A DNA stretch of 64,000 nt, taken from the NCBI RefSeq assembly GCF_003097495.1, contig NZ_QEOP01000001.1, positions 806,001 through 870,000 on the forward strand, in the 5' to 3' direction. Position numbers and translations under genes: made by a program. Shown one piece after another: positions 38,686 to 39,636 of the stretch (its first letter is position 1; every line of letters begins with the position of its first letter). This stretch comes from Amnibacterium flavum. GTDB lineage: Bacteria > Actinomycetota > Actinomycetes > Actinomycetales > Microbacteriaceae. The notes under the pieces are model-generated. The model was not told where the DNA came from, ran no database searches, and saw only the letters and a list, made by a program, of their open reading frames with translations.

Positions 38686-39636
38686 ATGGATGATCGAGTG
38701 AAGAACCGTGGGCTGTTCGGTGTCGTCGTCGGGGTGGTGGTCGCACTGCTCGGAGCCGGCCCGGTGGCGGCGATGACGATCTACGTCGATCCGCCCTCGG
38801 GGTCTCGTCTCGCCCTCGACGCGGAGCCGTCGGACTCGATCGAGAACATCCGGGCGAAGATCCAGGACGACATCGGCGTTGTTCCGGAGGAGCAGGTTCT
38901 GTCCTTCCAGGGGCGCACGCTGGAGGACGGGCGCACCCTGTCCGACTACAACATCCAGCGGAACAGCGTTCTCCAGCGGGAGTTCGTTTCGGGAAGCGGG
39001 GTGATGCCCCTGTACGTGCAGATCCCGTCGGGTGCGATTCTGACCCTGAGTGTCGCCGCCTCGGACAGTGTCGAGACGGTCCGTGCCCTCATCCAGTCTC
39101 AGATCGGCGTCCCCGGCGAGGCTCAGACCCTGAACTTCGCCGGTGGCACTCTCGAAAACGGGTTCGCTCTCGCCGACTACAACGTGCAGGCGGGGGACAC
39201 CGTCGTGCTGACCCTGCCGGCGCCCCAGTGGCCCGATGCGACCATCGGGGCAGGACGAGTGGGGGTGCCGTACCTCGCGACACTGTCCGTGACCGGATTC
39301 AGCCCCTCCTATTCGGTGATCGATGGCACGCTGCCGTCCGGACTGACGCTCGACCCGGCGACCGGAGCGATCAGCGGCACACCGACGATCCCCGCGAGCG
39401 TTCGGTTCACTGTGCAAGTAGTTACGTTGTCGGGAACACTGACTCGAACCCTGACGCTCGACGTCGCGGCGTCCTGCTCGGAAGCGGACAGCCCGGCTGC
39501 CGCGGACAGGCTCGCAGCGACCGGCGGGACAGCCGATCAGCTTCTTCCCCTCCTTGTGAGCCTGCTGCTCACCGGATCGGCCATGGTCACCGTCGACGCC
39601 GCGACCCGACACAGGGGTCGCCGCCGGGAGTCCTGA
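38686..39636 (+). CDS. Exported, cell-wall-sorted protein with two tandem ubiquitin-like domains
   Basis: A 316-residue protein. Signal peptide about 8-29 (LFGVVVGVVVALLGAGPVAA). Ubiquitin-like domain 1 at 30-101 is strikingly close to eukaryotic ubiquitin: EPSDSIENIRAKIQDDIG and LEDGRTLSDYNIQRNSVLQ are nearly textbook. Domain 2 at 107-178 is more diverged (SDSVETVRALIQSQIGVPGE, LADYNVQAGD). Residues 183-262 look like a putative Ig (He_PIG-type) domain (LPSGLTLDPATGAISGTPT). The C-terminus has LAATG (276-280), a membrane segment and RHRGRRRES, a class E sortase signal. No free di-glycine tail exists. ATG 38686 is used; GTG 38698 with GGATGGA upstream is a good alternative. TAGGTT at 38654-38659 may be its -10 box. 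Function unknown. Confidence 0.9.
   Translation: MDDRVKNRGLFGVVVGVVVALLGAGPVAAMTIYVDPPSGSRLALDAEPSDSIENIRAKIQDDIGVVPEEQVLSFQGRTLEDGRTLSDYNIQRNSVLQREFVSGSGVMPLYVQIPSGAILTLSVAASDSVETVRALIQSQIGVPGEAQTLNFAGGTLENGFALADYNVQAGDTVVLTLPAPQWPDATIGAGRVGVPYLATLSVTGFSPSYSVIDGTLPSGLTLDPATGAISGTPTIPASVRFTVQVVTLSGTLTRTLTLDVAASCSEADSPAAADRLAATGGTADQLLPLLVSLLLTGSAMVTVDAATRHRGRRRES

Follow-up and report, generated by a model that had tools for sequence, protein, structure and literature searches.

A predicted sortase-anchored protein with two ubiquitin-sequence domains in Amnibacterium flavum

The window, a 64,000-nucleotide stretch of the Amnibacterium flavum genome, contains on the forward strand at 38686-39636 an open-reading frame of 316 amino acids, exactly as delimited in the first-pass annotation. 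The protein begins with a signal peptide (residues 1-29, 38686..38772, ending in LLGAGPVAA, best 19-residue hydropathy 2.4), followed by two ubiquitin domains delimited by sequence, Pfam and an AlphaFold2 model, which we refer to as Ubl1 (residues 30-101, 38773..38988) and Ubl2 (residues 107-178, 39004..39219), and by an Ig-like stalk domain of the He_PIG type (residues about 180-264, 39223..39477), assigned from Pfam PF05345 and all-beta in both models. The chain closes with an LAATG sorting motif of the class E sortase type (residues 276-280, 39511..39525), a hydrophobic segment (residues 286-306, 39541..39603, hydropathy 1.8 over 19 residues) and the basic tail TRHRGRRRES (39604..39633). 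Each surface element named in the first-pass annotation, namely the signal peptide, Ig-like domain, LAATG, membrane segment and Arg tail, is therefore present, and the predicted signal-peptidase site lies immediately 5′ of the Ubl1 Met1. The gene sits on a 1.64-Mb contig of a clean genome (99.99% complete, 0.17% contaminated) and carries a bacterial signal peptide and sorting signal, which rules out contamination with eukaryotic DNA. Upstream of it lies the gene for a nucleoside hydrolase; those for a FadR-type GntR regulator and an FMN-dependent dehydrogenase lie downstream. As the adjacent genes are metabolic or regulatory, an operon with conjugation enzymes is ruled out. A comparison within the genus yielded no clean empty site: the regulator-dehydrogenase pair is kept in two relatives and the upstream side is wholly different, which places the gene at the edge of a syntenic block.

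Both domains carry the ubiquitin sequence itself. Ubl1 aligns with human ubiquitin without gaps, 38 of 67 positions being identical (57%, residues 30-96), and the run LEDGRTLSDYNIQ is found literally in the protein, in agreement with the half-identical, gap-free alignment that had been proposed by eye; the second copy proposed at residues 107-178 was also recovered, Ubl2 being identical to human ubiquitin at 31 of 71 positions (44%, ungapped, from residue 107). Alignment scores of 198 for Ubl1 and 148 for Ubl2 compare with 52 and 49 for the best of 5000 shuffles each. The Pfam ubiquitin family PF00240 is matched twice (100.6 bits in total, cut-off 25.4) and He_PIG once, at residues 191-260 (42.9 bits, cut-off 24); Pfam returned only ubiquitin-type models and He_PIG, with no match to the MucBP or Ig-binding families. 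A phmmer search against PDB places ubiquitin first, with E about 1e-19 for single-ubiquitin chains. The Ubl2 Met1 lies 77 residues past the Ubl1 Met1, compared with 76 in linear polyubiquitin, and the linker REFVSGSGV stands in place of LRLRGG.

We modelled residues 29-266 with AlphaFold2 from an alignment of two sequences, to which the relatives recovered by genome search were not added. The model shows two beta-grasp domains followed by an Ig-like domain that is all-beta (mean pLDDT 82.8), the fold expected for residues 30-101 being predicted there and in the second domain alike. Ubl1 superposes on ubiquitin with a VIA-align Z of 16.4 and an rmsd of 0.7-0.9 Å over 74 residues, and Ubl2 (model residues 77-150) on the ubiquitin variant 6cpm with Z 16.1 at 0.8 Å, whilst Foldseek returns linear diubiquitin as the top match for the model (E 5.8e-18), with linear polyubiquitin and ISG15 as its best structural matches. 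Because so many solved structures contain ubiquitin, the predictor may lean towards it, and the placement of the domains relative to one another is not reliable (pTM 0.57, low pLDDT at model residues 74-76). Modelled alone, the Ig domain is all-beta at moderate confidence (pLDDT 70.9) and its Foldseek matches, which include putative alpha-galactosidases and cadherin-like modules of the adhesin SraP, are weak, so the Ig fold rests on Pfam and the model.

Several ubiquitin features are missing from both copies, as had been noticed in the first reading of the sequence. There is no free Gly-Gly, positions 75-76 being S-G in Ubl1 and Q-W in Ubl2 and internal to the chain in both; the equivalents of K48 and K63 are R and R in Ubl1, G and A in Ubl2; I44 is replaced by S and N, respectively; and of the ubiquitin-type lysines Ubl1 retains K29 only and Ubl2 none. 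We compared 16 Ubls from the host's bacterial family with ubiquitin. Identity is 70% at the 14 core positions, where 93% of residues are hydrophobic, and 52% when all 72 sites are counted (P = 0.003); loop 51-62 likewise reaches 70% (P = 0.014). Identity falls to 17% in the I44 patch (P = 0.002) and to 12% at K6/K11/K48/K63 (P = 0.0001), all of these P values being indicative since the permutation tests take sites as independent and sequences as unrelated. Judged from this comparison, the fold is constrained and the signalling surface is not. In a small-genome group of the family, one Cys of the Ubl, close to ubiquitin position 42, co-occurs with one of the Ig domain, and an inter-domain disulphide joining the two is a possibility. 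The host genome gave no match to E2 with a panel that had no positive control, and its sole ThiF match is a MoeB/MoeZ-like cofactor enzyme with rhodanese. With no free Gly-Gly, almost no lysines, the wrong compartment and no E2 found, the protein would be conjugated to nothing.

Five sortase-family genes are present in the host genome. One belongs to class E (NF033747, 235.5 bits against a cut-off of 160); the other four are of class F type, with a score above the class F cut-off in one case. LAXTG is the reported recognition motif of class E sortases in Actinobacteria (PMC5148588), and the window protein has the signal peptide, L-x-x-T-G motif, hydrophobic segment and basic tail of a sortase substrate; its own tail passed no curated LPXTG model, and the G154 homologue, which is nearest to Ubl2 plus Ig, passes the Gram_pos_anchor and TIGR01167 cut-offs. 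From these features we infer that the protein is exported and anchored. A second protein of the host genome (L002 1462-2658) has a signal peptide, an Ice_binding (DUF3494) head (166.8 bits), a He_PIG stalk, LASTG and a basic tail. That one stalk and anchor bears different heads is the best evidence for the Ubl pair as a head module.

Searching the host's bacterial family, as the first-pass annotation had suggested, recovered further proteins combining a signal peptide, Ubl and LxxTG: PF00240 matches exceeded the cut-off in 12 of 400 genomes and 8 of 85 genera (the host genome is included in the sample), and in none of 14 control genomes. An LxxTG motif with hydrophobic segment and basic tail was present in 15 of the 16 family proteins, the exception being that of G257, and nearly all share an architecture of signal peptide, Ubl, mostly the same Ig domain and an LPxTG-, LAxTG- or LVxTG-type motif. 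Almost all relatives carry the Ubl at the N-terminus, generally as one copy and not as a repeat of variable number. In the small-genome group the gene adjoins mnmA/ligA, a position conserved across two genera, and dN/dS between pairs of homologues is 0.29-0.45, in line with selection on the gene, though a rough value as synonymous changes are near saturation. Elsewhere retention is sporadic: one genus has the gene in 1 of 16 species, and it is absent from all eight other genomes of the host genus, so any role is dispensable. Taken from these genomes, the picture is of a real gene family, patchily retained. No conserved partner gene was found across genera, nor any ligand-binding residue shared among the relatives.

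Identity to eukaryotic ubiquitin of >50%, and of up to ~90% in relatives, is most naturally explained by horizontal transfer of a eukaryotic ubiquitin. A secreted ubiquitin is known in Bacteroides fragilis (BfUbb; PMC3352274, PMC5705921; PDB 8hm2), an unlikely source because Ubl1 is only 35% identical to it (8hm2), compared with about 50% to eukaryotic ubiquitin. In a tree of 72 positions Ubl2 groups with the single Ubl of G154 (support 92/93) and Ubl1 weakly with G174, the remainder being poorly resolved and too weak for counting transfers. A simple internal tandem duplication is one candidate origin for the pair: Ubl1 and Ubl2 are 46-53% identical, depending on the stretch compared, but the tree places the two copies with different relatives. 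As Ubl2 and Ig together also resemble the Ubl and Ig of G154 along their whole length, Ubl2-Ig may be the original unit, with Ubl1 added later.

Ubiquitin-family genes were also found further afield, in samples of the order (3 of 346 genomes), class (3 of 345) and phylum (1 of 245), where several of the matches have no obvious signal peptide and appear to be of another kind. Three proteins from another family of the same order (L063 6584-8257, L064 1785-3530, L065 3284-4438) have ubiquitin domain(s), a long acidic Gly/Pro-rich linker and a C-terminal membrane segment, with no obvious signal peptide. Three others (L066 8496-9704, L067 8290-8904, L068 7677-9239) combine ubiquitin with a shared C-terminal domain, have no signal peptide and are encoded by gene copies that lie next to one another in G1016 and G1120; in G1120 one of the copies is split over two frames. 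A large actinobacterial protein (L028) with sialidase-like repeats contains a weak ubiquitin-like stretch.

Ubiquitins predicted to be exported occur in other groups too, on different anchors, and an A-x-A-type cleavage site directly precedes Met1 in 14 proteins, the window's included. A Candidatus Taylorbacteria protein has a signal peptide, ubiquitin, LamG and a peptidoglycan-binding domain; the Ruminococcus albus plasmid pRUMAL01 (L032 5926-6666) encodes a signal peptide and a ubiquitin 90% identical to human over 72 positions; and giant Ig-like or tandem-95 proteins encoded on Pseudoalteromonas megaplasmids start with a ubiquitin-like stretch. The pRUMAL01 gene lies within a same-strand run of genes that ends with a dockerin protein. 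Among IMG/VR contigs, L040 4808-5134 encodes a signal peptide and a complete ubiquitin with an RLRGG end, 94% identical to human over 72 positions, in a BfUbb-like layout; L043 2322-2765 (also L044 and L045) a signal peptide, a ubiquitin 88% identical to human and an IPTL-CTERM tail (TIGR04174, 33.6 bits, cut-off 20.5); and L092 2881-4338 and L093 1619-3082 a signal peptide, ubiquitin and an autotransporter beta-domain (PF03797, 63.4 bits in L092, cut-off 26). The L043 gene has a phage terminase gene next to it, and also one for a fusion of portal protein and Acb1 anti-CBASS domain. It is possibly a phage moron bearing a surface ubiquitin; this check of phage neighbourhoods covers L043 and, less firmly, L047, and the annotated phage collection gave no match. 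A broader reading would make the signal-peptide-ubiquitin unit a recurrent module borne on varied surface anchors (sortase, IPTL-CTERM, autotransporter, peptidoglycan-binding domain) across several phyla and perhaps phages, with a common extracellular role such as recognising other cells; we offer such an undescribed class tentatively, and consider it rather doubtful.

For the window protein, we lean towards an exapted ubiquitin fold serving as the head of a sortase-anchored surface protein and not as a modifier, a reading we hold to be somewhat better than even. On this reading, a ubiquitin gene of eukaryotic type would have been acquired, fused to a bacterial signal peptide and put to new use at the outer end of a cell-surface protein. 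The signal peptide would direct export of the chain, cleavage would leave the ubiquitin Met1 at or beside the mature N-terminus, and the class E sortase would join the chain to peptidoglycan at LAATG. The Ig-like domain would then be the stalk and the two ubiquitin folds a compact outer head, presumably binding some partner. A structural or adhesive surface module, as opposed to a modifier, was already the first-pass interpretation, and that part is supported indirectly by the class E sortase, the second LAxTG protein, the LxxTG tails of 15 of the 16 relatives, the lost conjugation features and the failure to find an E2 in the host genome; its other suggestion, a mimic that meets eukaryotic hosts, found no support.

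Such a mimic or decoy would engage ubiquitin-binding proteins or deubiquitinases of eukaryotic grazers or hosts after uptake, which would suit the high identity to eukaryotic ubiquitin and the near linear-diubiquitin arrangement (the best Foldseek match and the Met1 spacing of 77). Most ubiquitin-binding domains, however, read the I44 patch, which is among the parts of the family most consistently lost, the linker is REFVSGSGV instead of LRLRGG, and the Cys pair of the small-genome group could dock the ubiquitin face onto the stalk, so that we regard mimicry as very improbable. A wall-displayed head might instead inhibit neighbouring bacteria on contact in the fashion of BfUbb, which appears to have been acquired horizontally and is inhibitory to other strains of B. 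fragilis (PMC5705921); a patchy distribution would suit a trait used in competition, and signal-peptide-ubiquitin genes do occur on phage-like contigs. The low identity of Ubl1 to BfUbb (35%, vs. about 50% to eukaryotic ubiquitin), the apparent wall anchoring of a protein that is not free and the lack of any conserved neighbour across genera as a candidate immunity gene make antagonism of this kind improbable, if less so than mimicry. The ubiquitin domains might also be a pure spacer, binding nothing and only lengthening the wall-anchored stalk. Beta-grasp modules are described in Gram-positive adhesins, being part of the stem in SraP (PMC4047093) and occurring as repeats in Periscope proteins (PMC9704523), and a fold that is kept with a surface free to drift is what a spacer would allow, but with few exceptions the relatives have the ubiquitin at their N-terminal end, mostly as a single copy. 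We consider the spacer unlikely, though the strongest of these three alternatives, and retain the anchored ubiquitin head as the preferred reading.

The accepted view of ubiquitin is that of a signal inside eukaryotic cells. In a family that retains the fold but not the conjugation features, and bears signals for display outside the bacterial cell, ubiquitin would be serving as a stable scaffold and nothing else; the family also provides a natural experiment on which ubiquitin positions serve the fold and which serve signalling. That similar arrangements exist on other anchors, in some cases on phage-like contigs, suggests that this has occurred more than once, and such reuse is testable in culturable Actinomycetota.

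The first-pass annotation knew of no described system of this kind. In the literature that we searched, no paper describing ubiquitin-sequence domains with sortase anchoring was found, and to that extent the remark holds, but the parts themselves are known: secreted bacterial ubiquitin (PMC3352274, PMC5705921), beta-grasp adhesin modules (PMC4047093) and sortase anchoring each have precedents. Like linear polyubiquitin and ISG15, the window protein has tandem beta-grasp domains, at a Met1 spacing of 77 residues vs. 76, yet it carries export and anchor signals, has no Gly-Gly and retains hardly any of the lysines used in conjugation. Bacterial Ubl conjugation operons, in which polyUbl occurs with E1/E2/JAB (reviewed in PMC11354881), share with it ubiquitin-like domains that are sometimes in tandem, whereas the window gene has no adjacent partner enzymes and its product carries export signals. 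As in SraP beta-GF, Mub and protein L, a beta-grasp domain occurs in a wall protein next to stalk modules of Ig- or cadherin-like type, but the beta-grasp modules of those adhesins belong to the Ig-binding superfamily and lack ubiquitin sequence, whereas the domains of the window protein are ubiquitin by sequence. The BfUbb protein consists of one free ubiquitin, 63% identical to human, which binds E1 and inhibits related strains (PMC3352274, PMC5705921). The window protein resembles it in being bacterial, in the signal peptide before ubiquitin, and in its ubiquitin fold, apparent horizontal acquisition and sporadic presence, and differs from a freely secreted single ubiquitin in having two copies within a longer chain, an Ig stalk and a sortase signal.
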